Below are positions 24,829-62,499 of a stretch of 64,000 nucleotides of DNA, piece after piece. Below the pieces are notes generated by a model that was not told the DNA's origin, searched no databases, and worked only from the letters and a program-made list of their open reading frames with translations. Each line of letters opens with the position of its first letter. Position 1 is the stretch's first letter. Source of the DNA: Closterium sp. NIES-65 (lineage: Eukaryota; Streptophyta; Zygnematophyceae; Desmidiales; Closteriaceae); assembly GCA_948144175.1 (NCBI GenBank), contig CANXME010002520.1:62001-126000 (forward strand). The letters are read 5' to 3'. The position numbers and the translations under genes are program-made.

Positions 24829-26545
24829 CATAGCTACTTACCGAACAGGTGACAAATTGGAGGTGTATTTTTCCTGCAATGTACAGCGCCCACTTTCCTT
24901 ATACACTGTACAACCCACAAAATTATAACGACGACCACTAAGCTTCCCACTTCCCCTCCTCTGCCTTTTGCCTGGTTGTTGTTTACATACTCCGCGTTTG
25001 AATCAGCACAAACATGCACTTTACCACGGAAAAGGGAGGTGCGGAAAAATACTTAAAAGTTACTGGCGCGTAACTTTTGGGTTGCATTTTCCCCGCAATA
25101 AAGAAAACCTTATTCGAAAACAGTGGTAGCATTAGTCACTTCGAAGTCGCTTACTATCAACATGGTGTACACATTCGAACAACTTTCCCTACACCTCTCG
25201 GGCAACCTAAAATAAATTGTACTGTAAAGTCTGACGCTGCGTTGCATTTCACGATAACGTTGTTTCGCAACCACCCACCACATATACGTGAATGCAACCA
25301 AAAACCCCAGTCTCGTACACGTGCCCACGTGGAGTACAATGACAACCATCTCTGCCACGTAAGTGTACACACCCTACTCTCCACTTGCATCCACACCGTC
25401 GGATGTTCACACCCTCAACCGATCACCCCCGTTCACGTGGAGGCATTCCTCAACATCGTACACAAAATTACACATTCGCGAAACAACTTAGCTAACTTCA
25501 CAAGCTCCTCCAGATTAGATCGTGTCCGTCCATCCCCACACCTTGTCTCTAGTGATCGCGCCCCATTAGCATATACCGTCAACCACAATGAGCGCACCAC
25601 GTGCTGCATTTTTATCACTTTTTGACTGTGCAACATCCACACAACCTCTCGAAATCGTGACGGTTCAGCTGTCGCCATCTCCTGCATTTGTGCACTTGGT
25701 AACAACCTCGCGACTCCAACTTCGCATGTGTCGCCCATCAGCCGCGAACAAACTACGGTCGTCCATCCAGTTCACCAACAACAAATCCCTCCACGCCACG
25801 CAGGAAGCAAAGTAGCCAACCCGCATACGTTCTCTACTCCGTGAACAATCATGGATCGGAAATCGTATCCGTCACCCAGCCTGCATCCGACCCCTGTGAT
25901 GAGGTTCATATCGTGCAATCCCTGGCACACACGTGTCAGTTTACACTTTCTCTCATCTCGCGTAACACCTTCGCCACATCGACTTCGCGGTCATCACCTC
26001 TTTCGCAGCAACATCAGCACCCCTACATTGCTCACTGGCCCTCACCATTCACAGACGGCCACGCGTCATTATGACGCCATCCAATCACAGAAACCAAAAC
26101 GTAACTTCCAATCACCTTCCGACATATGCACCTCTACTCACCACAAATCGCGATTATACAACACCGTGGGCCACTAGCATCCACCCATCACATGCTTGCG
26201 CAACGACCACTATCACATGATTCGAAAAAATAATAGCTACATACTGTCCATCGCGCCGCATGTGGCGCCGCCAAAACTGGTGGCATTTGAGTCGCAGTAC
26301 GGCGACAATTTGAAACACTTGTCTACACTCGTTTCCACGGTAACCCATAACACTTTCACTATATTTAAGCGAATGTAGCAATTGCAACCCAGGGAGAGTA
26401 CCCACCATCAACTACACACTCCAAATCGCCAACTGGCCCTCTAAACCCCACATCATACATCCAGGTTCCATTACAAACATAGGAATACTGCAAACACGCT
26501 TCCCTGAAACCCCAACCCATAAACCAAAAATAGTAGAGTTCAACT
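24829..26545. other. No recognisable gene
   Basis: Lower-GC stretch following the truncated Copia B. ORF 25077-25625 (plus, 182 codons) has no domain I know and lacks supporting context. The right end probably includes the 3' flank of gene X on the minus strand. Confidence 0.4.
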
Positions 26546-28200
26546 CTACTCATCTTCGACTGACACCGACTGCGCATCATTCCCTGTGCCTTCCACCCCT
26601 TTGGCGCCAATGGTTGGCTTCATGTTCTCAAGGCCACATGCGGAAATAAGAAGGCCATGGCGTCCCCAAATCCACTCCTCCTTCTCAGAGTCGTACTCTG
26701 GATTGAAGTGATGGATCGCCTGTGCAACAGATGCGTTAACAAGCGCCTTGAGACCATTCACGACGTGGCCATTGCCCCCCGCCGAGTTCAAGAGCCGCCC
26801 CATCTGCTGCTCCCAGAATATGATGCTGTCGGCCACCTGCAGCACGACAAACTCAACAAATGCTCTATCAGTCCTTGAAAATAACAACATAGCTGGCAAC
26901 ATAGCCTTCACTCACCACTTGATCCAACCACGCGAGGTGGTACACCTTCAAAGACAGCGGTAGTGCTGCCTTTTTGGGATTGAAGGCAGCCTTAGCACAA
27001 GCAGCAAACGCGGCAGATGCGAACGACATCCCATCACGATCGTTGGACCAATTGGTCAGCACCAGCAAATCTGCAAACACGGGGTTATTAAGACGCCGGC
27101 ATTAAACCTACTTATTGACCAACAATGCAATGAGGCATGAACTTAGGCATTTGAGCCTTACCGCTCTCCTCTACACCGAGCCCAATGCGTTGTTGAATCT
27201 GAGCGTGCGTTGTCCTGAGCCCACGGACTAGCCTCGTCACGCTCATCCCTGAACAATCCAAGCTTGGGAAGCGCAATGTCCCGAACCCACGCGGCAGCCC
27301 TTGTCTTCCACTCACTCAACGTCTTGTTAAGGTCCGCGCGACATGACTTGTTTGGGGCAAGAGCGAGGCATGTGAAGCTATGCGGCAGGCAGTCAATGAC
27401 TGCGCATACGCCGTACACACAGTCATCGGAGCTTGGGTACAAATTCATGCTGGCGGACGACTCCATGAGGAACAGCTGCACTCGGACAAGTTCGCAAAGG
27501 CGCTGCACAAGCAGAGATGCACCATAGGAGGAATAGGGGGGGAGGAGGGGGGGGCGGGGGTGGGGGGTAGTAGAGGTGTCACTAGAGTCACGCCGCATAT
27601 ATGTGAAATACTATTACAACCTCCGCGACCCGTCCAACACACACCTTCCAAGCCTTATCAGCCGACAGCAGATCAAGGGCACGCTGCAAGACAGGCGACT
27701 TCGCAAAGCGCATGTGTTCACGACGTGTGGGAAAGGGGATGCAGTCCTCGTAGTCGTCGTCCTCCTCCTCATCGTCGTCCTCATCACTGTCGGCCACGGC
27801 CTCGCCGCAACACACACGCTTCGAGTCCATACATCCCTATCCGGGATCCCTCTGCTTCTCCGCTTTGTGATGACGGGAACCCCCGTCTGACTTAGCCAGT
27901 GCTTGCAGGAGGAGATTTTCCAAGTGGGCGACCTTCTGCGCACTCTCATCCTACGATTTCATGAGACACCGGAAGACCGCGATAGAAACGCGCACCTCCT
28001 CACCATTAGTGTGCAACGCTTCATTGTCGCGGTTGAGGTTGTTGTTGAACATGTTGCGCATCGTGGCTCCCTTGTCCTAATCATCCTCCTGTTTAGTAGC
28101 ATCCTGCAATCCAGTTGTTGGCTCATGTTCGCCACCGATAACGTCATCGGCGCGCATCTGCCTCTCTTGACTTTCAGCATCGTCGCTCATAGGAGAGTCG

Positions 28201-35201: not shown

Positions 35202-35638
35202 AGTCGCTCTGCGGAACCTGGGCCGAAGCCCTGCTAGGAGACACTTCAGATGTCTCACCTTCGGTATTCTCTAAAAATGTGCCGAATTATAGTCTGCAGA
35301 ATTATAGTCAAACATTTCTGAAAAAACGACAAATATTGTATGCAGAACCAAGACAACGTAGTTTGTAAAATGCAACCCAAGCATACATTACTTACCGTCA
35401 CGTCCTGCCTTCCCTCCGGCTCCCTCTCGCGGAAAGGCCAAACGCTTTGGCAAAGCAGTTGCGCGGGAGCGGTTTGCCATGCGACCCTGTGGAGTTGTCA
35501 CCTGGTATGCTACTCGCAGATACGTGGGAGGCTTGGAGATCCTGCAGGCTCGTCCCGTGTTCTCAGTATCCTCAGATGCAATGGAAGTTTCCATCTTTAG
35601 AGTCGGCTTGAATTGGAATGCAGAAAGCCTCGCATTAT

Positions 35639-44002: not shown

Positions 44003-47000
44003 CTAATCGCCATCATACAAAACCTCACTCCTCGGTAATATCCCAACCACCTTCTTTCTGGCTCCCACGCCCACTCTCCACATCCTTGTCCTCACACCTT
44101 CCTTCAGCACCAGTACTTGTCTTGTCCAACTGTCTAGAGACTTGTTCTGAACAATCTCAGTGTCCTCACTACCAGGCTTCTCACGATCACCATCTGCTTC
44201 CCTCCCCCCCGCTTGCACGCCACTCTGCTTCCACTTCCTCCCCCTCTTTGTATGTGTTGCCTTCTGCTTAGCTTGGGCTGCCTTCCACATCAGACCCTTG
44301 TACGTCTCCCTCCACACCCTCCAGCGCCACCATATGCGGGCATCCACCAGTATTTTCATGTGGTCTTCGGTGCACCCTTTCAGAGTGGCTTTTTCAGCTG
44401 CTGATAACACCACAGTGTTTCGAATGCTGTCCCTGGGCCTCAGCATAAATGCAGCCGCCACGTAAGCAGTGGCAGCCTCCTCTATCGTAGTGTAAGCACC
44501 CACCCTCTTCTGTCTCTTCTTCCCATCCTTATCCTTCATAAGAATCTTTACCCCAAACTTGCCGGTGTCCGCCTCCACATATACCCCAATGTACTTAGTA
44601 GGCTTAGAACCGGGGTCATTTTCACCCTCGCCATCATCCTCGAGCTCCTCTCCTCCTGCTAATGGCTCCTGTTTAGGGGCAGCTAAGAAGCCTGACGTTG
44701 CGGCTGCACCTTCTTGCGCCAGTCTATATAGCTGATAGGAGGGATGAACAACGGAAACTACTGGTCCTTGCTGCCGGGACAACACCCAGTGCGGAATTGT
44801 GCCAGGAATTAGCAACTGGGCCAGGATCTGGTGGTAAGCACCAACTGCAGCCGCAAACTTGCTGTCAAGAGAGATTCTGGTGCTGGTACATTAGACATCC
44901 TTGTCTGGGATCTCATGCTACTGCTTTGCATACCCAGATAGCCGTAGTGGAGTGTTTGGTCCATGCTTGCGACCATCATTCTCTCTTGCGCTCTGCTCAC
45001 CCATAGAACCATGCTGCAAGAGGTTATCGACAGCCGTGCAATCCCTTTTGTTCCTGATTATCCAGCAAGAATAAAAAACGCAAACTACATTATAAATCTC
45101 TAACATGCGCACTCTAAACCGTCACCCATGTGTCGGGTACCGCAACACTCACATTGAGCACATGGCGCGGAACCACTTCCAGCATCTTATCAATATGCGC
45201 CTTGTCTGCATGTGGATGCGTGGCTTTAGCTAATGTAAACTGAGAAAACAGAAACAAGAATGAATGAACTATGAATGAAGTGGGTACAAGTACTAACCCT
45301 AATTGGGTTGTACCCCCTATGGGATACCCCACTACAGCCTACACAAAAGCATAAGCTATAATGTTCTGACATAAACAACACCCTGCACCCAAAGAAATAA
45401 CCCAGACACGTGTTTCAATCAGCATGTACTTGTGTGCACCAAAAACACGATACCGAGAAGTTGCACATACAACTTGGTGCCGCTGAAAACCTTCTTCATG
45501 TTCTTTGGGCGTCGGGAGCTGTCAAACAACACCATCTCAAAAGGCGTGCAATCCCTTTTGGTCCTACTTTCCAGCATGCGGCAGGGTGATATTACGGTCA
45601 CGAAGGCATAGTGATCTCTGCATCAAATGAAGCATCCCACACGGATGAAGTTTAATTAAACACAAAAACCACTAAAAAGTGCTTAAAACATGGATGCGGG
45701 CTCACTCCAGGAAGACGAGGACCGCTAGGAAGTCGTGCTCAAGGAGCAGGAGCCCGTTTCCAGCCATGACTGGCAAATTCCATGCCGTGGTTTGCTTGAA
45801 AGCCTTGCATTCAAGCGCCGCCCACGTTTTATCGTTGCTCAGCTTCGGCACACGAATGCTTAGCAGCCTGCAATACAAAGAACACTCATAGTGTATGCCT
45901 GTTAAGCTTAGCGACCTGCCCTCTTGCGGCAAGTTTACATGTACTCTTATCCTACTCACACAAAGTGCACTCAATGCAACGTTACTCACACGTTGTGAAA
46001 GTCGACGACTGCGTCTGACAGCCATGTGTCATCCGCGATCGAGATAAGTTCCTTCTTGTCCACAACACATGCCACGCCCCGATGATCCACGAACTCCATG
46101 TTCCGGTACTCGACTTTGTGGTAATTCTTCACTAGGGACGCCACAAGATCGTCGAGCTGAGGGTCTTCTGGTGGTGCGATTGTCAACGGGAGTCGTTGTG
46201 AGACCCCGTCCTTGCTTGGGCGGAGCCGACTTCGTGGTCGGGTGTACGGGGGAGTGCAGCCGACCTGCAGCAGTAGGCGTGCTGGTCGATGAGGAGTTTG
46301 ACCTGCACGGGGGCCACTACGACGGGCGCCGACTTCCGGGCGCCTAAGAGGTTGACCAGGAGGTCGACCGAACGGAGTGGTTGATGAAGGAGAGGCCGAC
46401 GTCGACCTCGATAGGGGAGACTGGGGATATTGAGCTGGTGGGCATCGAAGAGCAAGACGCCCGGGCAGCTGGATGTCGAGCAATAGGGCGCCGGGGTGGA
46501 GGGCGCCGCCCTTGGGCGGCCGACGACTTGGCGAAGTCGGCGGCCTGGTCCCGTCGCGGTCGACGAGGGGACACCAACCAGGGATGATCCCGACCTGACG
46601 CGGCGAACTGGTTGCCCGGTCGACCGGGATACCCGGGCGACGTGTGCGAAGATTGCCGGGGCAGTTCTGCGAGGCCGACCTCAGGGGTGGTATCCCGAGG
46701 TCGACGTGGCTGGTGGGCGCAGTCGCTGGTGTGGAGTCAACCTGGGCGTCTGCGTTGTGCACGTGATATGGAAGAGCGCACCAACCAGCTGCGCGCACTT
46801 GCTTCGTAGGGTCACCATTGTCCTGCGGGTGCAACGCTGTGCAGCCGACTTGCTGCAGCGTTGGCACGCTATGGACTTGCAACGTTGGCAAGCCGCGACC
46901 TTGCTCTGCTGGAGCGCGGTCAACCGAGTCCTACTGGCATGCGGTCGACCGTGCTCCGCTAGAAGTAGACCAGCAGCTTTGCTAGATCTGATGTAGTCTT

Positions 47001-47370
47001 GCATGCCAATAGTGTTGCTATCATTATTATGAACTTTTGCTAGTGAAACTCTTGCCAACTTTCCCTGTGAACCAGCAAACAGTGCAAGCACAAGTAAACG
47101 ACTAAGTGAACGAACACAGAAATCACACGAGCACCTGTGCCTAGCCCATAGTCAACCTCCTGATGTTAGAGTTATCTCCGCAGCGATGATCTTTGCATTG
47201 AACTTACTGGGACTCTTCTCTTCCGCATCTTCCACGGTCCGCCGCTGCTTCTTTTTCTGCGCGTCAGCATCCTTACCCTTTCGCGAGCGCATAGCGCGGA
47301 CTTCAAGAACTTCGTCTTCCGAGCCGTCGCTAGAAGCGTTATTCCGGCTAAGAGCCTTTTTGGGTGCCAT
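44003..47370 (-). CDS. Gene Y: Ulp1-like protease region joined to an AP2-like domain
   Basis: Minus strand, several exons. 47370-47152 encodes a basic start (MAPKKALSRNNAS). An exon ending at 45990 ends TWLSDAVVDFHNV; then 45867-45706, 45617-45454 (DHYAFVTVI, VLFDSSRRPKN), 45205-45153, an exon ending 44934 (NKRDCTAVDNLL) and 44876-44003. Junctions 45990/45867, 45706/45617, 45454/45205 and 44934/44876 keep phase with GT-AG. The WL-D entry motif, HY, FDS and later DC follow the order His, Asp, Cys of Ulp1/SENP (C48) SUMO proteases. The last exon has KYIGVYVEADTGKFGVKI, then KRVGAYTTIEEAATAYVAAA, a recognisable AP2/ERF-like domain. The junction 45153 to the DC exon does not keep phase, and the links upstream of 45990 are unproven. 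If joined, it is an unusual protease and DNA-binding fusion. Confidence 0.55.
45241..45371 (-). mobile_element. Solo LTR in an intron of gene Y, TSD TAAAC
   Basis: 131 bp from TGAGAAAACAG to ATGTTCTGACA, with the ACTAACCCT and GTACCCCCTATGGG core shared by the Copia LTRs of this window. TAAAC precedes (45236-45240) and follows (45372-45376). It lies between exons 45454 and 45205, so splicing could remove it. Confidence 0.9.
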
Positions 47371-47664
47371 TAGACGAAGTGTAGAGAAGCGTTAGGGTAC
47401 TAAATGGAAATGCAAGTCGCTAGTGAGCAGAAGCAAAAATGGTGCACTGAATCCACACCTGCGTTAGGTTAGGGTTCCGAGCAGGACAGATTCGTTTCCG
47501 CGCATATAACTCTTTCAAGTCGTAAGCCCCAGTCACCACCTATCCACCAAAGAAAATGAGATATACACGTCGGGCAACACGATGTGCAACGCAGCATGCG
47601 CATCTTCTCGAGACGATGACACATGTCAGCCGATGTGTTCTCCTGGCACTTTGATGGGTGCATA

Positions 47665-47882
47665 TGTCAGAATATGTTGTTTGGGTAGTCTGCATTGGGG
47701 CACTCAATAGTGAGTACAGCCCCTTAGGGTTTGCTATTTGTATCCTGCTGCTTGCTAGTTCAATCATTCCCTTCTCAATTCCATTCCTGCACACAACCTA
47801 GCTCGTACTTGGCGCCTCATTGCTCTAGTCCTACTGTGGCCTAGGCTACTAAGCCTAGGCCGTGCTCTCACTATATCTGACA
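47665..47882 (+). repeat. 5' LTR of the non-autonomous element
   Basis: 218 bp, TGTCAGAATATG to TATCTGACA; contains the inverted GGCCTAGGCTACTAAGCCTA word near its 3' part. Confidence 0.95.
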
Positions 47883-48059
47883 TGGTATCAGAGGGCGGCA
47901 TGTCTGCCGCCTTCCTGTGTATGGGCCCACCACCTGCTTCCGCTGCCCTACCGTCCGCCGCGCGCCCCGTGGTGCGCGGCGGCGAAACCCTAATTTCTGC
48001 CCGCCGCGCGCTCGGGGCGCCTGGCGGGTTTCCCTTCAATGGCGCCCGTCGTGGTGCCC

Positions 48060-48540
48060 TTGGGGGGGCCTCCGCGGTCCCCTCCCGTCGAAGCGCCCGT
48101 CGAGGCGCTCTCGGGGACCCGCGCGGCCTCCCCTCCCGTCGCCCGTCGAGGCGACCTCGGGGACCCGCGCGGCCTCCCCTCCCGTCGCCCGTCGTGGCGA
48201 CACGGGGGCCGCCCTCCCCGTCGCCCGTCGTGGCGACCACAGGGGCCGTGCGCGGCGCCCTCCCCGTCGCCCGTCGAGGCGACTTCGGGGGCCGTGCGCG
48301 ACGCCCTCCCCGTCGCCCGTCGAGGCGACTTCGGGGGCCGTGCACGGCCCTCCCCGTCGCCCGTCGTGGCGACTTCAGGGGGCCCGCGCGGCGCCCTCCC
48401 CGTCGCCCGTCACGGCGACTTCGGGGGGCCTGCGCGGCGCCCTCCCCGTCGCCCGTCGAGGCGGCTCTGGAGGCCCGTCGCGGCGCCCTCTCTGGTGCCC
48501 GTCGTGGCGCCCCGGGGGGGGGGGGCCGCGCGGCTCCTTG
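48060..48540 (+). repeat. GC-rich repeats of the CCCGTCGAGGCGACTTCGGG type
   Basis: Degenerate tandem units in the element interior, with CGTCGCCCGTCG recurring about every 40-60 bp. ORFs across it (for example 47882-48829) are open only because stops are rare in this composition. Confidence 0.8.
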
Positions 48541-49444
48541 CTCGTCGCCCCTCGGGGCGCCCCTCCCTCCTCCTAACTCCTCCTACCTCCTCCTACCTCT
48601 CACCTGCAGCGGCCGCCCCTGGAGCAGCCCGCACCTGCAGCAGCAGCCCGCACCTGCAGCAGCAGCCCCTGGAGCAGCCTGTGCCTGCAGCAGCCGCCCC
48701 AGGACCCGCGCGAGCCACCCCTACGGAAGCCCGTCCCGTCCCCCCCCCCCCCCCCCGTGCTGCCCATTTCTCCCATTCCGCCGTGCGTTCCGCGGTGGTG
48801 GGGGTGTGGGGTGGCAAGCATGGGGGTGAGAGGAGTGGGTTCTCCCCTCCTCCTTTTTTATCTCCCACTGCTGCAGCTGCCACTGAGGGGGGTGGAGGTG
48901 TGGGAGCAGTGAGGAGTGGAGCTATGGGGGTGATGTGGGGAGTGGAGCTATGGGGGTGATGTGGGAGTGGAGCTAGGGGTGAAACTGGGAGTGTGTGTAG
49001 GGGGGTGTGGGACTTCTTGGGGAGGCTGAGAGGAGGCTGCCGTCTAGTCGTCCGCAGCACCTGTAGTCCGGGGCGCTCTACTGGTAGCCCAGAGAGCCTG
49101 CTGCGCCTGTCGCCCGTGGGTCCGTTGCTCCTGCCGCTCGTCGTAGCCCGTGAGCCAGTTACTCCAGTAGTCCGGGGCGCTGTCCCGGTAGCCACTGTGC
49201 CAGCCGCTCCTGTTGCCCGTGTGTCTGCAGCTTCAACCGTCGTCTCCCATCTTCTCTCCTCTCACAGTCCCTCCTCCTCCTCACTTGCCCGCTGTGACTA
49301 CCACTAGCTTTGCTCATAATTGTGAACTTTAAACTGTTGCTTCTTGTAATTGTGCTCAGAATGTGTGGTGACATTGTGATCCACCCTGAGCTTGTTCTGC
49401 TTTGCTTACTGTGCTGATTACACCCCACTTTGGCTATGGGGGTG

Positions 49445-49662
49445 TGTCAGAAAATGTTGTTTGGGTAGCCTGCAGTGGGGCACTCAATAGTGAGTACAGC
49501 CCCTTAGGGTTTGCTATTTGTATCCTGCTGCTTGCTAGTTCAATCATTCCCTTCTCAATTCCATTCCTACACACAACCTAGCTCGTACTTGGCGCCTCAT
49601 TGCTCTAGTCCTACTGTGGCCTAGGCTACTAAGCCTAGGCCGTGCTCCTACTATATCTGTCA
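49445..49662 (+). repeat. 3' LTR of the non-autonomous element
   Basis: 218 bp, TGTCAGAAAATG to TATCTGTCA, nearly identical to the 5' copy. Confidence 0.95.
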
Positions 49663-49859
49663 GCATATGCGACCACTACAACCCTTTCATCATAGATCTC
49701 CGGCAGTAGTCGATGTGATTGTATCGAGGGGTTGGGAATAAGGCGTGTAACAAGCTATTATTAACGGAAATAGCTAGTATCTATTGTGACTGCGGGAGTG
49801 CATATCAAATAGCTCTAAGCCCATTAGGTGCCCAGTTTAGGGTTTCACATACAAGCAAA

Positions 49860-50856
49860 ATGATAGGAAACAAGCGTGGAGTTTGCAGGAATGATTTTAC
49901 AAGTGACCGCGACTTACAGTCCCATCTTGCTAATGGAAACAAATGCGGCAACAAGCTCAAGCGAAATCTTGAACAGCTTATGTTTAATGCCTATCTGGAT
50001 GCGCTGAATAGACTCGGGCACAGTCGACCTAGCAGCCCGGCGAGATCAAAAGCCAGAACCAGTGGGGGGCTTATACAACAGCCGCCAAGACCCTCTATTC
50101 CATTGACGACGCCCGAGCATCCATCAAGGGCTCATGACGAAGATGACGTCTCAAAATGTTCTGAGGCTGTCGACGTCTCTATGGTTTTCGACACGCTTAC
50201 GGAGTTGTATTTGTTTTTCCGCGACGTGGACTTATCGCGCCGAGAAGTGAACCGTCTACTTAATATTTTCTGGAACCCACTGTTCAATCTTAAAGCCTTA
50301 CGATATTGGCACAACTACGCTGATGTTAAGCGATGGGGCAAGGAGCGAGCCCCGCCATACATGGTTCCGTGGAAAACTAAAGAGATAATCGTGCGCGGAC
50401 CTAAAGGAATTTCGCAAAAGCCACCCCTTCACTACCGCGACACGGAGTTGGTAAGTCACAAATGTCATGAGTGCGGCGATGCTACCAACGACTAGATGTT
50501 TGGGTTGCAGGAATGAGGGTTTATATAACTACATTGACCTAACATGTTTGTTGCTTGTGATGTGTCCGGCTCGTAAAGAAGCTTGTCCGTATCTTTTCTG
50601 GGAAGAAAGGATTCGTGTGGAAGCCTAAAAAAACAAAATCAAGAAGGGAAAGCGAGTTTTTGAGGGGCCGGAGACGGGTACTTAGATGCACGAGGCGTAG
50701 GTACGCTGCCAAAGTGATACGTCTTTGCTCTCCATATGCAGAAGACTACCGTCTACACCCTCCTTTCATTCCCCCACCGTAGGTCTTAGTGGCAGAAAGA
50801 AATTAAGGACAATAAAGCTCTGATTCTCGGCGTCATCGTGTACAGCGACAGCACGC
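49860..50856 (+). pseudogene. Transposase-like gene, 5' exons (Plavaka/CACTA-like)
   Basis: ATG 49860 (MIGNKRGVCRNDFTSD) opens an exon to a GTAAGT donor at 50451. It has a finger-like start (C, then H and C in HLANGNKC), a Pro/Ser linker and LSRREVNRLLNIFWNP. A second exon probably begins at 50579. A third begins at 50790 (WQKEIKDNKALILGVIVYSD) and is cut at 50856 by Copia G. The C-x-F-x-H-x-C start, the RREVNRLL segment and the I-YSD-T word are what I associate with Plavaka/En-Spm-like transposases. The exon resumes at 53510 in phase. Upstream of ATG, about 200 bp separate it from the non-autonomous LTR element. Confidence 0.5.
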
Positions 50857-50880
50857 TGTCAGATTTATATGACATATTTG

Positions 50881-51899
50881 CTGAGCGGCTATGTGCAGCA
50901 GCACCCGAAGAGTGGTCATCTTCGGGGTGGGAGAGAAGGTCTGAAAGTAGTCAACTCCCTGCCGCTGACTGAAGCCACGAGCAACGTACCGCGCCTTGAA
51001 GACAGGTGGAGAGCCCGGCGGCCGCTTCACCCTGAAGATCCACATGCCACTGACGATGTTCGCCCCAGGAGGGGGAACTGCGTCAACGTAGGTGCCTGTG
51101 GACTTCCAGGAAGCCATCTCTGCATCCATAGCTGCCTGCCACTGAGACGAGTAGGGACCCTCTACGGCCTCCGCGTAAGAGCGCGGAGTCGGGATGTCTA
51201 GTGCATCCGGGTCTCCCTCAGGAGCAAGCAGTACAGACGCAAGATGAGGTGAAGCAGCAGCCAGACACTGTAACTCCTCCTGCCTGTCCTCTAGGACGTC
51301 CGTGCCAAGAGCACACTCACCCTCGACGGACGGAGGACAGACAGACGCAGACTCAGCAACAAGACTAGCAGCGTAGTCTAGACGACAGCGAGCAGCAAAG
51401 TCGTCTAGCTGCTAGTCTTGTTGCTGAGTCTGCGTCTGTCTGTCCTCCGTCCGTCGAGGGTGAGTGTGCTCTTGGCACGGACGTCCTAGAGGACAGGCAG
51501 GAGGAGTTACAGTGTCTGGCTGCTGCTTCACCTCATCTTGCGTCTGTACTGCTTGCTCCTGAGGGAGACCCGGATGCACTAGACATCCCGACTCCGCGCT
51601 CTTACGCGGAGGCCGTAGAGGGTCCCTACTCGTCTCAGTGGCAGGCAGCTATGGATGCAGAGATGGCTTCCTGGAAGTCCACAGGCACCTACGTTGACGC
51701 AGTTCCCCCTCCTGGGGCGAACATCGTCAGTGGCATGTGGATCTTCAGGGTGAAGCGGCCGCCGGGCTCTCCACCTGTCTTCAAGGCGCGGTACGTTGCT
51801 CGTGGCTTCAGTCAGCGGCAGGGAGTTGACTACTTTCAGACCTTCTCTCCCACCCCGAAGATGACCACTCTTCGGGTGCTGCTGCACATAGCCGCTCAG
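50881..51899. repeat. 492-bp inverted repeat with 35-bp centre
   Basis: 50881-51372 is the reverse complement of 51408-51899; every stretch I compared matched. The 35-bp centre (51373-51407) is itself a natural continuation of the RT-side sequence on the minus strand, as expected of a snap-back copy. Confidence 0.9.
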
Positions 51900-53165
51900 C
51901 GCGACTACGAGCTTCACTCTCTCGACTTCAGCACTGCGTTCCTACAGGGTAGCCTGCACGAGGAGATCTGGCTGCGCCGTCCACCTGGCTTCACTGGGAC
52001 TTTCCCTCCTGGCACCCAGTGGAGCCTCCGACGGCCAGTCTACGGTCTCCGCCAAGCACCGCGTGAGTGGCACGACACACTGAGGACTACGCTTGCGGCT
52101 CTTGGGTTTGCTCCTTCTACTGCTGACCCGTCGCTGTTTCTGCGCACCGACACTTCTCTGCCGCCGTTCTACATCCTCGTGTACGTCGACGACTTGGTCT
52201 TTACCACAGCGGACACTGCTGGACTCGCCTACGTGAAGTCCGAGCTGCTGAAGAGACACACGTGCACAGACCTGGGTGAACTGCGCAGCTACCTTGGCTT
52301 GCAGATCACTCGGGACAGAGCACGCCGCACCATTACCCTGACTCAGTCACACATGGTGCAGCAGGTCCTTCAGCGCTTCGGCTTCACGTACTCCTCGCCT
52401 CAGGCCACTCCTCTGCCTACTCGCCACTCGCTCTCAGCTCTGCCTTCGGATGAGTCCGTAGAGCCAAGTGGCCCGTACCCAGAGCTTGTTGGCTGCCTCA
52501 TGTACCTGATGACCTGCACACGACCTGACCTTGCATACCCTCTGAGCATTCTTGCACGCTATGTTGCTCCTGGGAGACACCGACCAGAGCACATGGCTGC
52601 AGCGAAGAGGGTGTTGCGCTACCTGTGCAGTACGTCGGGCATGGGGCTAGTGCTTGGAGGGCGCAGTCCAGTGGTCCTTACAGGGCACGCGGACGCTTCT
52701 TGGGCTGACGACCAGGCTACGCAGCGGTCGTCACAGGGTTACACCTTCAGTCTTGGTTCCGGCTCTGTCTCTTGGCGGGCTACTCGCTCGTCTTCGGTTC
52801 TCAGCTCCAGTTGTGAGGCTGAGATCTACGCTGGGGCCATGGCTGCACAGGAGCTTCGCTGGCTCACCTACCTGCTGACTGACCTTGGAGAGCCGCCTCG
52901 TTCTCCTCCAGTGCTGTACGTAGACAACAAGGCCATGCTGGCCTTGTGTCGAGAGCAGCGTCTGGAGCACAGAACGAAGCACATTGCTCTTTGCTACTTC
53001 CTTGCTCGTGAGCTGCAGCAGCGTGGACAGTTGCGGCTTGCGTACGTGGCCTCTGAGGCCAACACTGCTGATGTGTTCACCAAGGCACTCGCGCCTTGTG
53101 ACCATCAGCGCCTCTGCACCCAGCTGGGTCTTGTGCCTGTCTTGCCTCACTTGCTCTCCTCTTGA
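51408..53165 (+). pseudogene. Copia G RT-RNase H, open frame
   Basis: Open from the centre of the palindrome to the stop after VLPHLLSS, with no internal stop. MWIFRVKRPPGSPPVFKARY, AFLQGSLHEEIW, YVDDLVFTTAD, YLGLQITRD and RNase H to ADVFTKALAPCD. The N-terminal polyprotein parts are absent, so it cannot be made as a normal Gag-Pol product. Confidence 0.85.
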
Positions 53166-53376
53166 CTTTACTTGTACTGTGACATATATATACCTGCTCT
53201 TGCTTGTCTAGTTTTATATTTATATGTCTGTACTCCTGCATGTGAACTGGCCTCTGGCCCTGCTCTTGTGCTCGGACTGTGTGGTGACGTTGTGATCCAC
53301 CCTGAGCTTGCTCTGCTTTGCTTTACTTGACTGGTCTTGTGACCCCTTGCTCTCCCCCACTTTGCCTATGGGGGTG

Positions 53377-53504
53377 TGTCAGATTTATATGACATATTTG
53401 CTGTAGGCTATAGTGGGGTAGCACATATGGGGTACAGGGTTTCTAGGGTTGTATTTGTACCCAATCTTTCCTTAGTCATTTCATTCCTGTTTACTTGTTT
53501 CACA
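53377..53504 (+). repeat. 3' LTR of Copia G
   Basis: 128 bp, TGTCAGATTTATATG to TTGTTTCACA; its first ~27 bp recur at 50857-50883. Confidence 0.9.
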
Positions 53505-53509
53505 CACGC

Positions 53510-53605
53510 ATGCGTCGCGCAATGGCATGCGAAATACCTTATCTGCCCTTATTTCGCTTATTAATATAACTCCCAAAAAGGATCCCCGAACCCCGGAGAA
53601 GCAGA
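53510..53605 (+). pseudogene. Transposase-like gene, continuation of the interrupted exon
   Basis: Joined in phase to 50856 it reads ST-HASRNGMRNTLSALISL, then INITPKKDPRTPEKQKD. The pattern of YSD-T followed some residues later by SL-NI is kept. It ends within about 10 bp of where the RT of Copia H begins on the minus strand. Confidence 0.55.
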
Positions 53606-56600
53606 AGGACATTGTTGGGCATCAAGGTGTAGCTGAAATCCTGAGGGTAGTGGAGTCTTTACACTCCTCCCTTCCTCCAGCCCATACCTCTCCCCCATGG
53701 CTGCAAGGTACTTGTGTTGGTGAAGCCTCAACCATCCCTTCACCTCGTCCCTCTCCATGTGAAGACCAAGGTAATACCCCACCGGTCCAAGGGCCTTGCA
53801 TTGAAAGGTCTCCTTCAGCTTTCCTTGCACCTCCTTGATTCTCTCTAGGGATGGAGAGAAGAGGAGAATGTCATCGACGTAGACAAGGAGAAACACCTTC
53901 TCCTCCTCCCCCTCGGTCATGAAGAGACTCTCATCGCACCCGCTGACTTTGAAGCCAAGAGCCTCCAACGCCTCCATCAGCCTTGCATACCAGCACCTTG
54001 GAGCTTGTTTGAGGCCATAAATGGCCTTGTTGAGCCTGCAAACACGTCCGCTCCCATCGTCGTACCCCTCTGGCTGCTTCATGTAGATCTCCTCATCTAC
54101 CTCGCCATAGAGGAAAGCCGTCTTCACATCCATTTGCTCCACCTTCCAACCACAAACGGCAGCTACTGCCAGCAACACCCGGAGCGTAGGAGCCTTGGCA
54201 ACAGGAGCAAACACCTCCTTAAAGTCAACCCCCTCCCTCTGCTGAAAACCCTTGATCACAAGTCTTGTTTTGCGCCTCTCCAACTTCCCCTCCACATCGG
54301 TCTTCACACGTAATATCCACATGCAATCCAATGCCTTTCTTCCCGGGGGCAGATCAGTGAGGGTCCATGTTCCATTCTCCATGAGGCTCTGAAGCTCATC
54401 CTCACTTGAAGCCAACCAAGCCTCTCGATCATCTCCAGCAAGTGCTTCCTCCATTGAAGCCGGTTCATGAGGTAAGTTGACACCGAAGCAACAAATCTGC
54501 TCCATCTCTCCCTCGGCTCCCTTCTCCTCATCATCTTCCTCCTCCTGGACCAGCAATGCCTTGGGACCCCCAAGCCTTTCATACTTGAGGAAATCCCTTG
54601 GGTGGGCAGCTTTCTTGGGCCTCTCCTTGGCTGCACCCTCCTTAGCTCCACCGCGGACAGCACCATGCTTCCCTTGGGTTGTCCGCCTTGGTGGAAGTGA
54701 AGGGGATGGTGTAGGCTGCTGCACCTCCTCCCCGGCAGCACCTCTCTTAGCTACAGGAGCCGCCTCTTGCTGCAACACTCCCTCCACCTCTGCTGCCTCC
54801 CCTTCAGCACCTCCCAAGTCATGTGACACCTCCGTTACCTCTGAAGATGAAGACAACTCGATGGGAATGAGGAGTGGGTCATTCGTTCCCACCTCTATTC
54901 CGAGCGGAATGGTGACCTTGCTCCTCCCTCACTCCAACCACTCCTTGAACATGAGCCCCTCCATGAACTTGGCATCTCTGGTGGTGAAGATAGTGTTGGC
55001 TTTTGGGTCCCACATGAGCCACCCCTTGCTCCCTTGTGCAAGTCCCAAATGAACAGCCCACACCGCCGCCGCTTGAAGCTTGTCACGCTTCTCCTTAGGG
55101 ACGTGCACGAGTCCCATGCACCCGAAGACTCGAAGCATATCCACCAGGGGCTTATTGCCTCTCCACTTCTCCATAGGGACCCAATGCTGCCCTCCCACAT
55201 GAGTCAATACTTGGGTCTTCATGACGGTGGCATGGCGAATAGCGAGGGGCCATAATCGTAAGGGTAGACCCGAGTCTACCAACGTCGTTCTCCCACCCTC
55301 CATGATGGTCCGGTTCGCTCTCTCTGCCACGCCATTGGATTGAGGAGTGTAGGCCGTGGTAAGCTGCTGCTTGATGCCGTGCCGCTTCAGCCAGCTCCGG
55401 AACTCCGCTCCCAAGAACTCCCCACCACGGTCGCTACGAATCGCCTTCACCCGCTTGCCACTCTTTCGCTCCACCATGGGCAGCCACTCTTCGATGATGA
55501 CCCTTGCAGCATCACTTTTCTTTGCAAGTGGAAAGGACCAGGTGAGCCTTGTGTTGTCATCCACCATGGTCATGGAATACAGGGCCCCACCATCTCCCTT
55601 CACCTTCATGGGTCCAACGAGATCCACATGCACGAGCTCCACCGGGTCACTTGACTTCCCCTCCACCGAATGGAATGGAAACCGTGAAAACTTGCTGGTC
55701 AAGCAAGTCTCACAAGATCCCACCTCCTTGGGCTCCCCCTTTATCCTCAGCCTCTGGACTCTTTCCTCCTTAAACAGCTGCTGCAACTGAGGTAGCGCCA
55801 CGTGGCCAAAGCGACAGTGTGCGGTGAGCCAATCCGTCTCACCCGTGCTAGGAGTTACACTTGGTAGCGCAGCCCCTCCATGCCCAAGGAGCCCACCATC
55901 ACTGTCATCACCACCTCCTCCATTTTCCACGTGGTTAACACGCCCTCCTCTCACATCTCCAGTAGCCAAGCGTGCAGCTGCCTCCTTCCATGGCAGCACC
56001 GGTATCTCCCACATGGACTGGTGCATGTCCTTGCCACCTCGGAGGTCCCACAACACGCGCCCATCCAGAGTTGCCTTGAAAACCTTTGTGCCCGACATCT
56101 CCATCTTCATCCCTGCCTCACTTAGGGCCTTGGTAGAGAGGAGGTTGGCACACAATCCAGGAACAAGGAGAACACGCTTCAGCCTCACAAGCCTCCCATC
56201 CGCACCCATGAACATGGCTCTCCCCTCGCCACGCACGGGTACAACTTGGCCGGTGGCTGAAACGACGGTGGCTGCCTTTGATGGCCTAACTTCATCCAGT
56301 AGATCCTCTCGGTTGGTCATGGTCATGAAGGCTCCCGCGTCGATGACCCAATGGGAGGAGCGGTGAAGAGCAATCTTGCTGGCCGGCACAACCATGTCCT
56401 TGGGGCACGCCTCCCCTACATGGTAGAACATGCCGCCGTATCCACCAGCACCTCCATCGCCCTCCTCACTGCCCATGCCTTCTCCCATAGCTCCATGAAC
56501 ACCCTTGGAGCCCTCAATTGATGGCTGACTAGGCCTCCAACCGTCAGGTAGCTTGCGGCACTTGAACCATGGGTGCCCTTCCACATGGCAATACCAACAC

Positions 56601-57460
56601 TTGACGCCACACCGCTTGCCTCCCTTGTTGCCACGCTTCCCTCCCGAATGCTGCTCCCCTCCAGAGCCTTCCTTGGCCTTGCCTTTCTTGCTGCCACGCC
56701 CCTTGAGGCCCTTCATGCTGTAGGCTGAACCTCCACCTTCACCGGCAGCGGCGGTCAGCTCCTTCCTCTGAAACTCCTCTTGAAGAACTTGCGCGCGAAT
56801 CCACTCAAGGGACCACGAGTCCTTCATGCCATTAAGGTTGACCACCAAGGGCCCCCACGACTCTGGCAGCAGGGAGAGAGCCTTGTAGCACTTGATTTTC
56901 TCAGGGTAGTCCACACCAGCAGCAGAGAGCTTCACATAGAGGTCCCTGAGTTGATCGAACGCTCCTTGTACGGCATCACCGTCGTTGATCTTCACCGCAT
57001 GGAGATGTCGCTCGAGCACCACCACCATAGCTTTGCTGCTGGGGGCATGGACATCCTTCAATATCTTCCATGCCTTAGGACCACACTCAAATTCCTTGAT
57101 GAGATGCTTGATGTGGTGCAGCTGGTTGGATGAGAGGCATTGGGAGAGAAGGAAGAATCCATCCTTAGACCGGCGATCCCATTCTTTGGTCGCTCCTTCG
57201 CTCGCAGGCCTCTTCAATTCTCCATCCATCACTTCAAGCAGCCCATAATGGTTGAAGAGAAGCTCCATCCTGAAGCTCCATGATGCCCAATCCTCCCCAG
57301 AGAACTTCTCCAGGTTGAATGCCTTCACATCATCCTTAGCTGATGTTGAAACGGAAGCCATTGGTGCAGATCTGCCTGCAACGCCTATTCCCACTTCCCC
57401 AGCGCCTCTCACGCCACCACTGCCACTGGGACCAGCTGGAGCAGAACTTTCAGCCTCCAT
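53605..57460 (-). pseudogene. Copia H gag-pol (one stop, truncated)
   Basis: ATG 57460. Gag with FNLEKFSGEDWASWSFRM and a CCHC knuckle (CWYCHVEGHPWFKC). The protease active site reads VIDAGAFMTM, so the usual Asp-Ser-Gly is Asp-Ala-Gly. Pre-integrase HCRFGHVALPQL and CETC, integrase VHVDLVGPM, IRSDRGGEF and PQSNGVAERANR, then TGA at 54929-54931. Past it the same frame continues to RT: AFLYGEVDEEIYMKQPEGY, GLKQAPRCWY, LLVYVDDILLFS. RNase H is missing. Confidence 0.85.
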
Positions 57461-57499
57461 ATTCACCCACGAACAAAGTAGAACAGCTCTGATACCACT

Positions 57500-58309
57500 T
57501 GTTATAGTCTGCAGTCCACTTAGGGGTCGCGGATGGCCATGAAACCGCCTAAGTAGAAGCTGACGACTTGGAACCGCCTCTGTTCAAAACACTGTCACGG
57601 CCAGCTCCGATAAGATACAAAGCTGAAACTTGGACAGCAATTAGCCTTAGTTGTCTGCTTTCCAACGGTGTACTATTTGCTGCTATCAGAGGTGTACGCA
57701 CTACGCAATGAACTAAAACGTAAGCTCGGCTGAAAATCGTGTATTCTCATTTATGCAAGGAAGAGGTGAGGTACAACATTGCCTAGGGGTCTCTTAAGGG
57801 GTTGGGATCATCCTGGGAACTCAGAGAAGGTTGAGTCCTAGGGGAGAAAGGCTAGAGAAGGATGGGAAACGTCCTAGCTAGGTCAGCAAAGCCAACCACA
57901 CATGGATGTTCAGAGCTATACTCAAGGCAACCAATTGTGAGTCAAGCCAACCATGAGTCAGCTTGTCTTCCCACTTGCACCCTCTTGCAAGATGGTTCCA
58001 AGAAGACCAGACTTCTCAAAAGGAGGGTTGTAGATTCCCACTTGACCACCTGTACTTCTTGTCTCATTCTCTGTCCCTGCACCATTGGCATGACAACAAT
58101 GAAAGGGTGGCAAGGGAAATGCTGCCAACAGTGCACCATGACTACAGAACAGTGAATTTCGGCAGCTGTCACGCAATGCTCAGAAGTTGGATCGTTCTAA
58201 ACCTTGGTGAACACCTGCACAGCGGGGCAAAGGACTAATAGACCGAATTTCAGACCAATCCGATCTTGGTAGACAAGTCAGCAGCCGAAATGGTGAACTC
58301 GGGTGTTAC
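57500..58309 (-). repeat. Probable 5' LTR of Copia H
   Basis: The inner end is fixed by the primer site; the outer end is inferred from a TG start and cannot be checked because the other LTR is missing. 58310-58497, between it and the next Copia fragment, is unassigned. Confidence 0.4.
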
Positions 58310-58497
58310 CAAAAAGGAGTAAGACACACTTCCGGGATGCCATAAGTCTTGAAACATAAAATTTTGTCATGCCTTGGTAACTGCTTCAAAAACTCCGAAG
58401 AACACATGTTGAACAACCTCCCCATGAAATTCCAGAAGCTGAGCAGGCTTGTAGGCCGAATGGGAGTGCGATGACCGTGCCACTGTAATGTGTTGGC

Positions 58498-59779
58498 ACA
58501 ACACTCAGCACCCCTAGCAGCACTAGAGTCAACAGCTACCTCGACAGGCTCGACTGTGTCTACCTGGGACACACGTGAGGGGGCATGACCCTGAGGGGGG
58601 AGGGGGTCTACCAGGGGAGGACCTGGCACGAGGAAGAGCGGCGGGGGGGGGGGAGGGGGGCAGTGCGGTAGGGGAAGAGACGGTAGTAAGGAACCGACTC
58701 GTCAAACGTGACGTCCTGAGAAGACAGAACACGGTGCGAGGTGGGGTGGTAAAACTGTCAACCAGGCGCCTCAGGGGGGAAGCCAAGGAAGATGCAGGGA
58801 ACAGCACGGGAGGACAGCTTGTCCGCAGACAAGTCGCGGACAAAAGCTCGAGATCCCCAGACACGGAACGCAGACGCATCGTCAACCTTCCCCGTCCACC
58901 GCAGAGTAGGTGTGGTCTCCGGCAAGGAGACACCAGGCGGAAGGTTGATCTGATGCGTAGCGTACTGAACCGCGAACGGCCACAGAAAATGGGGAGCAGC
59001 CGCATGGATCATGGACGTAGGAGCGACGTCCATGACCATGCCAATGCGGCGCTCAGCAATCCCATTTTGCTGTGGAGAGGCCGGAAGCGTGAACGTCTGG
59101 CGGATGCCCTCCGCACGACAGAAGGCTCGCAGAAGGTCGGAGGAAAAATCTCCACCTCTGTCGGAGTGCAGACGCAAAACAGGACGGTCCGAGCCGAAAC
59201 TCTCGCTGAGCTGACGACAGGCAGCGCGGATCCAGTCGATCAGCACCTCAGTGACCTCACCCTTGCTGCGCAAGGGGAAGACGGTGGTGTAACGCGAGTA
59301 GTCGTCAACGACTAACAGAAAGTAGCGCTCGTGACCCTGGCCATGGACGCGGGCTGGGCCCCACACGTCCATGTGAAGCGTCTGCAGGGGAGCCTCCGTT
59401 GGAGGGAACTCGAAGGACTGACGAGCGGCGTGCTGCTGCCCCTCGACGCAAGGAACGCAGGTAGGGGCAGGCCCCGGGGGAAGGAGAGGGAGAGACCGGG
59501 GAAGACCAGTGACAAGGACACGGGAGGCCATGCCAAGGAGAGTCAGAGGAGAGGGGAGAGGTGATACGGTAGGGAGGGGTGACCAAGGTGGTGGTGCCAG
59601 AGGAGAGTCTGGTGAGACAGGAGGCGACACGAGCAGGGGGCGGTTTTTGTTTTTTTTTAAGAACGAGGAATGGTTGCATTGAGCAGCATGAGGAGTACAA
59701 GTAGGAAACCCTAAAGTGTTGTACCCCATATGAACTACCCCACTACAGCCTACACAGACTATATCATATAAGTTTGACA
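58498..59779 (-). mobile_element. Copia fragment I (integrase plus an LTR piece)
   Basis: Minus strand: an LTR-like piece ending at 59779 (AGTTTGACA on the plus strand) joins near 59640 to the pre-integrase/integrase region (VDDYSRYTTVF, LHSDRGGDF, NGIAERRIG) and stops in the spacer at about 58498. Gag and protease, and everything after the spacer, are absent. The integrase frame is largely intact to about 58758, where a stop replaces the WQFYH of relatives. Confidence 0.8.
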
Positions 59780-60508
59780 CCTATGCCGACGACCAGAGTG
59801 ATCGGCGCTCTTCCCAAGGGTATTGCTTCACCCTTGGCAGTGGGGTTGTAAGTTGGCGCTCCACTCGGTCGTCGTCAGTCTCCCTGTCAACCTGTGAGGC
59901 TGAGCTGTATGTTGGGACCATGGCTGCCCAGGAGGCTCCTTGGCTCTCCTTCCTGCTGACAGAACTGGGGTATCCTCAACCAACCCCAAAGCTTTGGTGT
60001 GACAACGAGAGCACCATTCATCTCACCAAGGACCCCGTTTTCCACGGTCGCACCAAGCACATTGAAGTCTGTCAATATTTTCTTCGTGAGCTGGTGCAGC
60101 GCGAGCAGCTGAAGGCTGAACACATTGCTTCCGACTGCAACCTTGCTGATTTGTTTACCAACTCGCTTGTTCGCCAGGACCATTACCGCCTCTTCTCAAC
60201 CATGGGTGTTGGGCCTTCTTGTGGGTGATGTGTTGCAGCCTAGGGGGTGTGTTAGAATTAGGCTGTCAACACTTAGTGTACTATATTTTTATATCGCGTA
60301 GGTTATTTGCGGGTTCGGTATAGTTTGTAATCCCAACCCTATCTGGTCGGGATTCCCTCGTAATCCTGCAAATCTGCCAACTCACCAATTGGAGATTTGC
60401 TAGGATTCCCATCCCATTCTTTCCCTAGCTTTGCTCAACCCAACCTCGTTTGTACTTAAGGCCTAGTGCCTCCTCTACTAGTCAATCAGTTCAGCTCCAT
60501 TTCTGTCA
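59780..60508 (+). mobile_element. Copia fragment J (RNase H end and 3' LTR)
   Basis: Plus strand: RNase H from YADDQSDRRSSQGY through STCEAELYVGTMAAQEAPW and LWCDNESTIHL to a stop at 60228, then CCTAGGGGGTG and an LTR beginning TGTTAGAATTAGG at 60250. The LTR probably ends near 60508 (TCTGTCA). The 5' part is missing, replaced by fragment I, so J was truncated or I inserted into it. Confidence 0.75.
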
Positions 60509-60558
60509 AGAAGTGCATGATTTATTGCATTTAGGTTGGGATACTAACATTGTGATCA

Positions 60559-62131
60559 ATGCGTGGTAGGCGGAAGAAGGAATTGAAGAGTGCCACGCCA
60601 AGTGTGCTACTCAGGATTCCTGGCGGGGCGTCATTTTTCCTATCTGGCGCACACTATTTGGCATTCGAGCACCGCACCATGATGCAAATCATGCCGATCC
60701 TGATTGCCGACAGCAGTACACTAAAGAATGACGCAGAGGGAGAGTTGAGGGCGCTGCAGGTCAGAGCGTTCCGCTTGTATGCGCTCTTCTACAAGACATT
60801 TTTGAGTGTGGCGTCGCACACCCGCGACTCTCTGTGCATTGCGCGTCAGCAAGCTATCACGTAAGTTGGGAGCACAGAACGGGGTGATGGGTTTAGTGTT
60901 TACATGGTGTTGGTGTGCGGTTTGTGGTCTTTTTAATAAGCAAGGTTTATGTGAATTGCACAACGTCAATACCGTACACTTTTTGAGTTGCAGACTATTG
61001 GAGTTGCTCCCCAAAGCTTTCAAGACGAAGAGCTCATACTGGAAAATACCCAAGATCCACATGATAAACCATCTGATAGAGAATGTGGAGACACGTGGGA
61101 TGCCGCACCACTACAACACGGAGATGTGGGAGCACACACATAAGGGCACTGTGAAGGGACCTGTGTGGGGGAGCAATTGGGCTGACATTCCGCGTAGGAT
61201 TGTGGAGGAGGAGGTGCAGCGTGAGATAAACAAAGAAGTTGCGACAGATGCGGGAGGAGGGCGCCAATATGTATCCGCACTGTGTAAGGTGAGTGCCTTG
61301 TTGAGTACGGTTAGTACGGGTATAGCGCATACCTTGGGTGATTATGCTCGTGGTGTTCTGTATATGTGCATGGTCCCCACACAAGCATTGTATGTGGTTG
61401 TCTACGGCAGGCTGTTGAAGAGCAAGAGCCAGTGCTCACGAAGAAGCATCAAGTCATGCGCATTGGATGCAACGCGGATAGTGTGTGGGCGTATTACAAA
61501 GTGATACACGGGGATCAAATGGCGGGGCTGCCTGGTCAGCTGAAGGAGATGCGTTATGCATGTGATAGTGTGCAGGTATGTTGCATTAAGTGTGCAGTGT
61601 TGAAATGTTGATATGCATATATTGAATACTGCACGTGTCCATTTTGCTTTGTGCCTTGTCCATGCACCAATTTACAGACACACACAGCGGTGGCCATACC
61701 TCGGCCGCAGAGTGGTGCACTGGTGGCCAAGAGGACCTTCGTGAAAGCCTCATCGAGGGAGAAGTTGTTTTCGTATGTGGCCCTTTTGTCACCTAAGGGG
61801 AGAGATTGGTTCGGTAAATGCTTATGTATTTTCAAGGCGCTCAATGCGGAGGGGAAGCGGATAGGGTGTACGTACGTGAGGTATTACGAAGCAGCCGGTC
61901 AGTGTCCCATCACAACGTGTACCCAGCTCTCTCCCACTCGCCAGGATGTGAGGTTCGCAGTGGTGCTGTTGAAGAGCGTCCAGACGGTTGTGCATGTATG
62001 CCCATCGTATAGCAACCCCAAGGTATTGCTAGTCAACAGTTTTTGCTGTGCATGTAATCATCTGAGGGGCATCCCCTATACCTGTTTTTTAGTTCTATGT
62101 TAGACAATTGGGACCTAAAAAGTTTGTCTAA
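60559..62131 (+). pseudogene. Transposase-like gene, 3' exons (Plavaka/CACTA-like)
   Basis: Exons 60559-60860, 60994-61288, 61411-61575, 61678-62022 and 62093-62131. All four junctions have GT-AG and keep phase, ending at TAA 62129. Key words: AFRLYALFYKTFLSV, then LLPKAFKTKSSYWKIPKIHM and MPHHYNTEMWEHTHKG. The pattern of a (F/Y)W-PK-H word followed by YNTE-E-H is what I know from the C-terminal part of Plavaka/CACTA-type transposases. The central catalytic part between 53605 and 60559 is not found, so the gene is dead. The start at 60559 only marks where coding becomes visible, since a stop lies just upstream. Confidence 0.55.
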
Positions 62132-62150
62132 GTCATGTAAGGAATGACCT

Positions 62151-62427
62151 TGTAAGGAATTTTTCCGAATTCCTTATCGGGGTTGACAGCTTCGCATACA
62201 ACCCGATTTTCGGAGTTCGCACGTTCGGCCGATTTCAACGCTGCCGAGGCTCCTCGCGTCGCCTTCCGCATTCCCATCGCCAAACCTGCACCCAACCTCG
62301 CTCGTCCGAGGTTTCCTCCTAGCTAGACTAGCCCTACATTAGTCTGTGCACTCATTGTATTCGCAGTTCATTCAGTCACAGTCTCGTTATTCGTTTACCT
62401 GCGCACTCTCTTTTACAACTCATAACA
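62151..62427 (+). mobile_element. Solo LTR, TSD GACCT
   Basis: 277 bp from TGTAAGGAATTTTTCCG to CTCATAACA, with GACCT at 62146-62150 and 62428-62432. It lies just after the stop of the transposase-like gene. Not of the small Copia LTR family seen elsewhere. Orientation inferred from the promoter-like order of its parts and is weak. Confidence 0.8.
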
Positions 62428-62499
62428 GACCTGGATGGATAAGAAATTTTAGTGTGGTATTTCATTTTTGGAAGATGGAGTTGTATTTGTGAGAGTACG

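Follow-up and report, generated by a model that had tools for sequence, protein, structure and literature searches.

Plavaka-type transposons with a predicted Ulp1-AP2 fusion gene in Closterium sp. NIES-65, and a probable broken copy in a 64-kb window

The 64,000-nucleotide stretch analysed here (the window) comprises positions 62,001 to 126,000 of contig CANXME010002520.1 (C2222:62001-126000) from the desmidialean alga Closterium sp. NIES-65, whose assembly holds 874 Mb in 2400 contigs. It carries two genes that point away from each other, an Ulp1/AP2 gene that runs on the minus strand from about 47372 to 44003 and a transposase gene on the plus strand (about 49860 to 62043). A first-pass annotation had read both genes at these places and in opposite directions and had proposed that they belong to one giant DNA transposon. 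Once the 2.0-kb long terminal repeat (LTR) element between them is subtracted, their first ATGs lie about 0.48 kb apart, in agreement with the spacing of about 0.5 kb given there. A second contig, C1729, runs collinear to the window for more than 100 kb, with an identity of about 97-99.9%; by this likeness it would be either the other haplotype or a recent large duplication, and we term it the other haplotype. More than two copies of the region exist, as C2273:1-5000 is a third one, 96.4% identical to window positions 46312-41413. In the list below, "active element" denotes the near-identical 13,366-bp subfamily described further on, which has 53% identity to the window's transposase exon; percentages against it are amino acid identities, and TSD stands for target-site duplication.

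44003..44890, minus strand: last exon of the Ulp1/AP2 gene, with an AP2-like core at 44438-44599 (Pfam AP2 on a 97-residue stretch; AP2/ERF matches in the PDB; at least 133 genomic matches)
45470..45616, minus strand: Ulp1 exon; by eye, it shows the expected catalytic-site residues His (DHYAF) and Asp (LFDSS) (matches exon A3 of the active element, E=2e-6)
45711..45887, minus strand: Ulp1 exon (match to the active element, E=4e-17)
45989..46219, minus strand: Ulp1 exon with WLSDAVVDFHN (E=1e-19; at least 124 genomic matches)
47158..47372, minus strand: MAPKKAL..., proposed as exon 1 of the Ulp1/AP2 gene (modelled by eye)
47665..49662: 2.0-kb LTR element between the two genes, TSD GCATA (LTR pair 94%; in both haplotypes)
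49860..50447, plus strand: first exon of the transposase gene, with a C2H2-like N terminus (weak Pfam hits; at least 150 scored genomic matches; 50% to the active element)
50561..50856, plus strand: transposase exons reaching to IVYSDST with the presumed first catalytic D (match to the active element and reading)
50857..53504: Copia element, TSD CACGC, interrupting a transposase exon (the other haplotype lacks it)
53505..53621, plus strand: transposase exon, continued
53622..60508: nested LTR retrotransposon remnants inside the transposase gene, outer TSD AGAAG, read from both haplotypes
60568..60858, plus strand: transposase exon (71% to the active element, E=4e-44)
60992..61291, plus strand: transposase exon with HMINH and with NTEMWE, where the last catalytic E is expected (73%, E=2e-49)
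61408..61578, plus strand: transposase exon (42%, E=4e-12)
61675..62043, plus strand: last recognised transposase exon (62%, E=2e-47)
62151..62427: solo LTR, TSD GACCT (read from sequence)

The AP2-like core reaches E=2e-5 and 25.2 bits against Pfam AP2 (curated cut-off 33.3) when the 97-residue stretch is submitted, and the PDB, searched up to E=10, gave five matches, each of them a plant AP2/ERF protein (E 0.0065-0.34). The Ulp1 assignment was not possible from the window alone because Pfam gave nothing there; we call the gene Ulp1 because the same gene in intact relatives matches Peptidase_C48 (E=1.6e-10).

The two genes travel together throughout the genome. We scored at least 150 genome matches for the transposase first exon, at least 133 for the AP2 exon, at least 124 for the Ulp1 exon and at least 122 for a further, DDE_1-type gene of the family, all four counts being lower bounds because only part of the candidates was scored. 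A transposase first-exon match lies within 40 kb of 110 of the 133 AP2-exon matches, where uniform placement would yield about 1.8 such pairs, and 107 of the 110 show the divergent arrangement seen in the window. Distances have a median of 4.2 kb, and 63 of the 110 pairs are within 5 kb. Near a transposase match we also found 104 of the 123 Ulp1-exon matches used (103 divergent) and 90 of the 122 DDE_1 matches (82 on the same strand as the transposase), and all three partners accompany 70 of the 150 transposase matches. Side-by-side loci, for which the first-pass annotation had advised a genome search, are therefore plentiful. In a distant subfamily (C1714, C1827, C343, C2079, C1721), the DDE_1 gene stands between the transposase and Ulp1-AP2 and is divergent from the transposase; the gene order has therefore been rearranged. 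Distant transposase matches occur several per contig on C660, C1915, C563 and C1103, and three on C660 are spaced about 21.3 kb apart, as if whole elements had been tandemly amplified. At C842:1205795-1211917, part of the DDE_1-type gene occurs four times in a tandem array, at regular intervals of 1,943 bp.

Complete copies define the unit that moves. C2325:94277-107642 and C2165:2104397-2117762 share a gap-free block of 13,366 bp at 99.7% identity and nothing else within the 20 kb compared. The block starts with CATCGCGAAA and ends with TTTCGCGATG, which are inverted termini. Among 20 copies of this active subfamily whose ends we examined, 18 have both ends and 2 have a damaged left end. An identical 2-bp TSD flanks 16 of the 18 two-ended copies, two of which share a site, resulting in 15 of 17 sites. 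The two exceptions form an inverted pair on C2325 with the reciprocal flanks GG/GT and GT/GG, which are expected after an inversion between the two copies and suggest that recombination between them inverted the roughly 40-65 kb in between (C2325:94277-161 kb). The 23-bp left terminus has 21 exact matches in the genome (reversed control, 0), and 38 of the last 45 positions of the right end are the same in the distant C896 copy. We searched element-free sites with 10 of the 15 joined flank pairs at hand and found a junction-spanning match for all 10 insertions. Near-identical element-free sites (96-100%) exist for five of them (C1838, C957, C2165b, C212, C501), so that at least those five insertions are recent, while the other five junctions matched loci at 86-94%, which may be related and not allelic sequence. 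The joined left and right flanks of a copy at C1934:1777678 read by eye like protein-kinase coding sequence, judged by what we take to be a protein-kinase motif, and some insertions may thus hit genes.

With shared ends, TSDs, element-free sites and linked genes, the active element is one mobile unit, as the proposal of a single DNA transposon carrying both genes had anticipated; across loci, the genes are linked and have common ends instead of occurring independently with no shared ends. The notion that they are unrelated host or repeat genes neighbouring the transposase by chance, with only the latter being mobile, draws on the window copy without clear termini and on those copies of each gene that have no partner match. 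It conflicts with the genome-wide divergent linkage and with the location of both genes in one 99.7% identical block bounded by terminal inverted repeats and a TSD, and it is already refuted by the shared ends together with the sites lacking the block, which leaves it a negligible probability. Large segmental duplication in place of transposition could likewise multiply linked copies: C1729 and the window correspond for more than 100 kb, and regular arrays are formed by some of the transposase matches. Since the two compared copies share only a 13.4-kb block within 20 kb, 15 of the 17 flank sites carry 2-bp TSDs and element-free sites exist, we consider this explanation very improbable. It is refuted for the active subfamily, whereas the window's own duplicates are haplotypes or duplications.

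To identify the proteins of the active copy, we removed introns and joined the exon readings manually and submitted the results to Pfam (Plavaka, C48 and DDE_1). The transposase matches the Plavaka family (PF18759) over positions 15-322 of 325 with E=3.2e-28 and 99.4 bits (cut-off 26.3); a single exon alone reaches 21.6 bits. By eye, it contains YSDST, PADFPE, CANC, HMMRH and STEMWE, of which CANC and HMMRH fit the C(2)C and H(3-4)H motifs of the Plavaka clade. From the sequence we infer which D and E are the presumptive catalytic residues. The window's transposase exons match the active copy at 42-73% amino acid identity. The label "Plavaka/CACTA-like" of the first-pass annotation therefore holds in its first half. 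That the element might instead be CACTA/EnSpm gains some credit from the relatedness of Plavaka and EnSpm within one clade, as described in part of PMC12730594, and we rate it as improbable: no transposase model other than Plavaka appears at E<=1, and the element has CATC..GATG termini with a 2-bp TSD, compared with CAC..GTG and 3 bp in the same passages (PMC12730594). A Zisupton (KDZ) identity was rejected on the TSD of 2 bp against the 8 bp that these passages require (PMC12730594). MULE/Vandal was rejected as well, since the Pfam models that the transposase hits at E<=1 include Plavaka and none for MULE.

The divergent gene of the active copy matches Peptidase_C48 with 41.7 bits at the E-value given above and shows EHYSL, LLDS and LPQQPNKEDCG by eye, in keeping with the His-Asp-Gln-Cys site of this family. 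SENP proteins align around its catalytic Cys and, for SENP2, at the His. An AP2-like domain (17.1-17.7 bits, E=0.0044-0.007) shares a 481-residue open frame with the Ulp1 Cys. The first-pass annotation was right in recognising Ulp1 and AP2 parts; as predicted from this frame, both belong to one fused gene. Gene X, which it had listed as possibly related, is located within the complete element on the minus strand, left of Ulp1-AP2, and gave no Pfam hit with the one exon tested.

The DDE_1-type gene is an addition to the earlier gene list. The protein, encoded downstream of the transposase, matches PF03184 in the active copy (E=1.1e-10, 41.8 bits); the C896 version, at 21.9 bits, falls marginally short of the cut-off of 22, and that of C1714 has no Pfam hit. 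We compared its acidic positions by eye with what we take to be the motifs of a working DDE_1 enzyme. The third position is L in both the active copy and C896, and M in C1714. At the expected place of the second stand T, T and V, with E or D three residues further on in two of the three subfamilies, and the first is H in the active copy and was not seen in C896 and C1714. Other stretches, SWWRAGCVP among them, are kept in all three. The protein is thus conserved and has probably lost catalysis. A search of the PDB gave no convincing match for it.

The window copy can now be read against the complete element. DNA and proteins of the active element map to it in order, namely gene X at 26549-35594, Ulp1-AP2 at 44291-46219 and the transposase at 49791-62043. 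The window element therefore most likely begins far to the left of 43703, the left boundary of the first-pass annotation.

24826..24850: probable left edge of the element (homology shared with Copia ends at about 24825)
26549..26860, minus strand: gene X exon matching active element 1530-1841 (58%, tblastn E=4e-38)
27200..27517, minus strand: gene X exon matching active element 2088-2600 (70%, tblastn E=1e-45; DNA match too)
27600..28022, minus strand: gene X exon matching active element 2389-3270 (41%, tblastn E=1e-19)
35421..35594, minus strand: 5' exon of gene X, split from the rest by inserted retrotransposon sequence (tblastn E=6e-16)

The left edge thus probably lies at about 24.8 kb, about 19 kb beyond the boundary first given; on the other side, where 62500 had been given, no right terminus of this copy was found up to C2222:176000. 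The absence of inverted repeats between 43000-44100 and 62000-63400 (0 shared 9-mers; shuffles 6.4) is explained on the left side by the misplacement of the search, the edge being near 24.8 kb. LTR elements interrupt both genes, as the first-pass annotation had described; its statement that all of them lie inside or between the genes needs correction, since some also lie outside the range it gave. At 53621 the window haplotype lacks 21.4 kb present in the other haplotype, further transposase exons included. The transposase segment with the second D and CxxC was seen in neither haplotype, nor did either of them yield a Ulp1 exon carrying the catalytic Cys. Neither the DDE_1-type gene, sought up to C2222:176000, nor the termini of the active subfamily, sought in C2222:52001-176000, were detected. 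The window copy is an old broken fossil in both haplotypes; it probably begins at about 24.8 kb and reaches 62.0 kb or beyond. Among relatives, C896 has a right terminus and Copia-like sequence where the left end was sought, and the right end of C213 is broken. Viral contigs, searched with one 100-residue stretch, and phage records, searched with a 291-base piece, yielded no relatives.

Three side observations concern the insertions and repeats. The Copia at 50857-53504 opens with an inverted duplicate of its internal sequence (493 bp, 100%, 35 bp apart) and has 5-bp TSD flanks as a whole; it looks like an aberrant complementary DNA that integrated. At C1729:513.4-515.8 kb, Tc1/mariner-like frames (by eye) lie within a Copia LTR and are split by an LTR-like element with 178-bp direct repeats (98%). 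A long tandem array with a 48-bp unit occupies window positions 3277-5640.

Taken together, the window very probably holds a broken copy of a Plavaka-type cut-and-paste transposon whose complete relatives carry Ulp1-AP2, gene X and a DDE_1-type gene as cargo. Several results weigh against this reading or its parts. No partner match lies within 40 kb of 23 of the 133 AP2 and 40 of the 150 transposase matches. For the window copy itself, neither a right terminus nor a TSD turned up as far as C2222:176000, and the left edge is deduced. The mapping of gene X covers this copy, the other haplotype and a single active copy. None of the scanned window pieces of transposase or Ulp1, each taken alone, matched its own Pfam family. 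The whole 295-residue AP2 exon gave no Pfam family at E<=1, AP2 scores stay under the Pfam cut-off for the window (25.2 bits) and the active copy (17.1-17.7 bits) alike, and no subterminal motif stood above shuffles as a candidate AP2 target.

In transposons of this kind, the DDE transposase cuts at the inverted termini. The Plavaka transposase would accordingly bind the termini and move the element. The AP2 part may recruit the Ulp1 deSUMOylase to DNA of the element itself; Ulp1 would there strip SUMO from silencing factors, or from the transposase, so that the element stays expressible; the DDE_1-type protein might serve as a non-catalytic DNA-binding helper. Such AP2-targeted deSUMOylation as an anti-silencing device, in the manner of the VANC/KIU proteins discussed below, is by analogy a fair candidate for the cargo's role, to which we would give slightly less than even weight; the low AP2 scores and the lack of a repeated subterminal motif above shuffles count against it. 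More tentatively, the Plavaka lineage may have independently evolved an AP2-aimed deSUMOylase, convergent with VANC/KIU, and domesticated a dead DDE_1 protein as an architectural DNA-binding partner. Ulp1-AP2 could also be part of the transposition machinery and have no anti-silencing role, with AP2 as a second end-binding subunit and the protease deSUMOylating or processing the transposase. The divergence of 107 of the 110 gene pairs and the spacing of 63 within 5 kb fit the co-expression this would call for, and CACTA elements use a separate DNA-binding protein. The Plavaka transposase already has a C2H2-like N terminus of its own (weak Pfam hits), and no motif repeated at both ends stood out; we therefore regard a machinery role as a doubtful possibility, albeit one to be taken seriously.

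Among known systems, Plavaka elements are described in fungi, and PlavakaB has CATCA..TGATG termini and 2-3 bp TSDs, according to passages of PMC12730594. The element reported here shares with PlavakaB, as portrayed in these passages, the transposase family, the CxxC and H(3)H motifs, the 2-bp TSD, the CATC start and GATG end, and an accessory gene beside the transposase; its CATCG..CGATG termini agree with those of PlavakaB in four of five bases (PMC12730594). The cargo differs, being Ulp1-AP2, gene X and the DDE_1-type gene here and a TET/JBP dioxygenase in the fungal Plavaka elements of the same passages (PMC12730594). In a green alga, Auxenochlorella, EnSpm-Plavaka elements occur and insertions of repeat families are polymorphic between haplotypes (PMC12636532). 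These elements are of the same Plavaka-type cut-and-paste kind; the passage concerned makes no mention of cargo, and "ulp1" and "ap2" do not appear in the main text (PMC12636532).

Ulp1 domains are known in MULEs, and the Ulp1-bearing VANC (KIU) group of Vandal hypomethylates related elements, the precise role of the Ulp1 domain in these proteins being unknown according to the part of PMC13317346 that treats them. Both there and here, a transposon-borne Ulp1 is joined to sequence-specific DNA recognition; the transposase superfamilies are unrelated, and the DNA-binding part here is AP2-like and known from sequence alone, as far as that part of PMC13317346 permits comparison.

The fourth gene belongs to the same profile family as the PF03184 DDE_1 transposases (41.8 bits, active copy), which we take to be those of the pogo/CENP-B type. 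It differs from them in that its catalytic acids appear lost, as judged by eye, and in being the cargo of another transposase. We found no report of Plavaka joined with Ulp1, or of a transposon Ulp1 with AP2, in the open-licence literature. As far as searches of that literature reach, both the Ulp1-AP2 fusion and a conserved, probably non-catalytic DDE_1 protein are new as transposon cargo.

Unrelated transposon superfamilies have acquired Ulp1 proteases. In Closterium, a protease apparently fused to a DNA-binding part shows linkage to a transposase; with haplotypes counted separately, this holds for 105 matched transposase places in the one genome, and near-identical copies are absent, for some insertions, from near-identical sequence elsewhere in the assembly. 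The question of why transposons take up Ulp1 is therefore testable in one system. The linked, apparently dead transposase relative would be a second unusual case, in which one transposon keeps the transposase of another kind for a purpose other than cutting.

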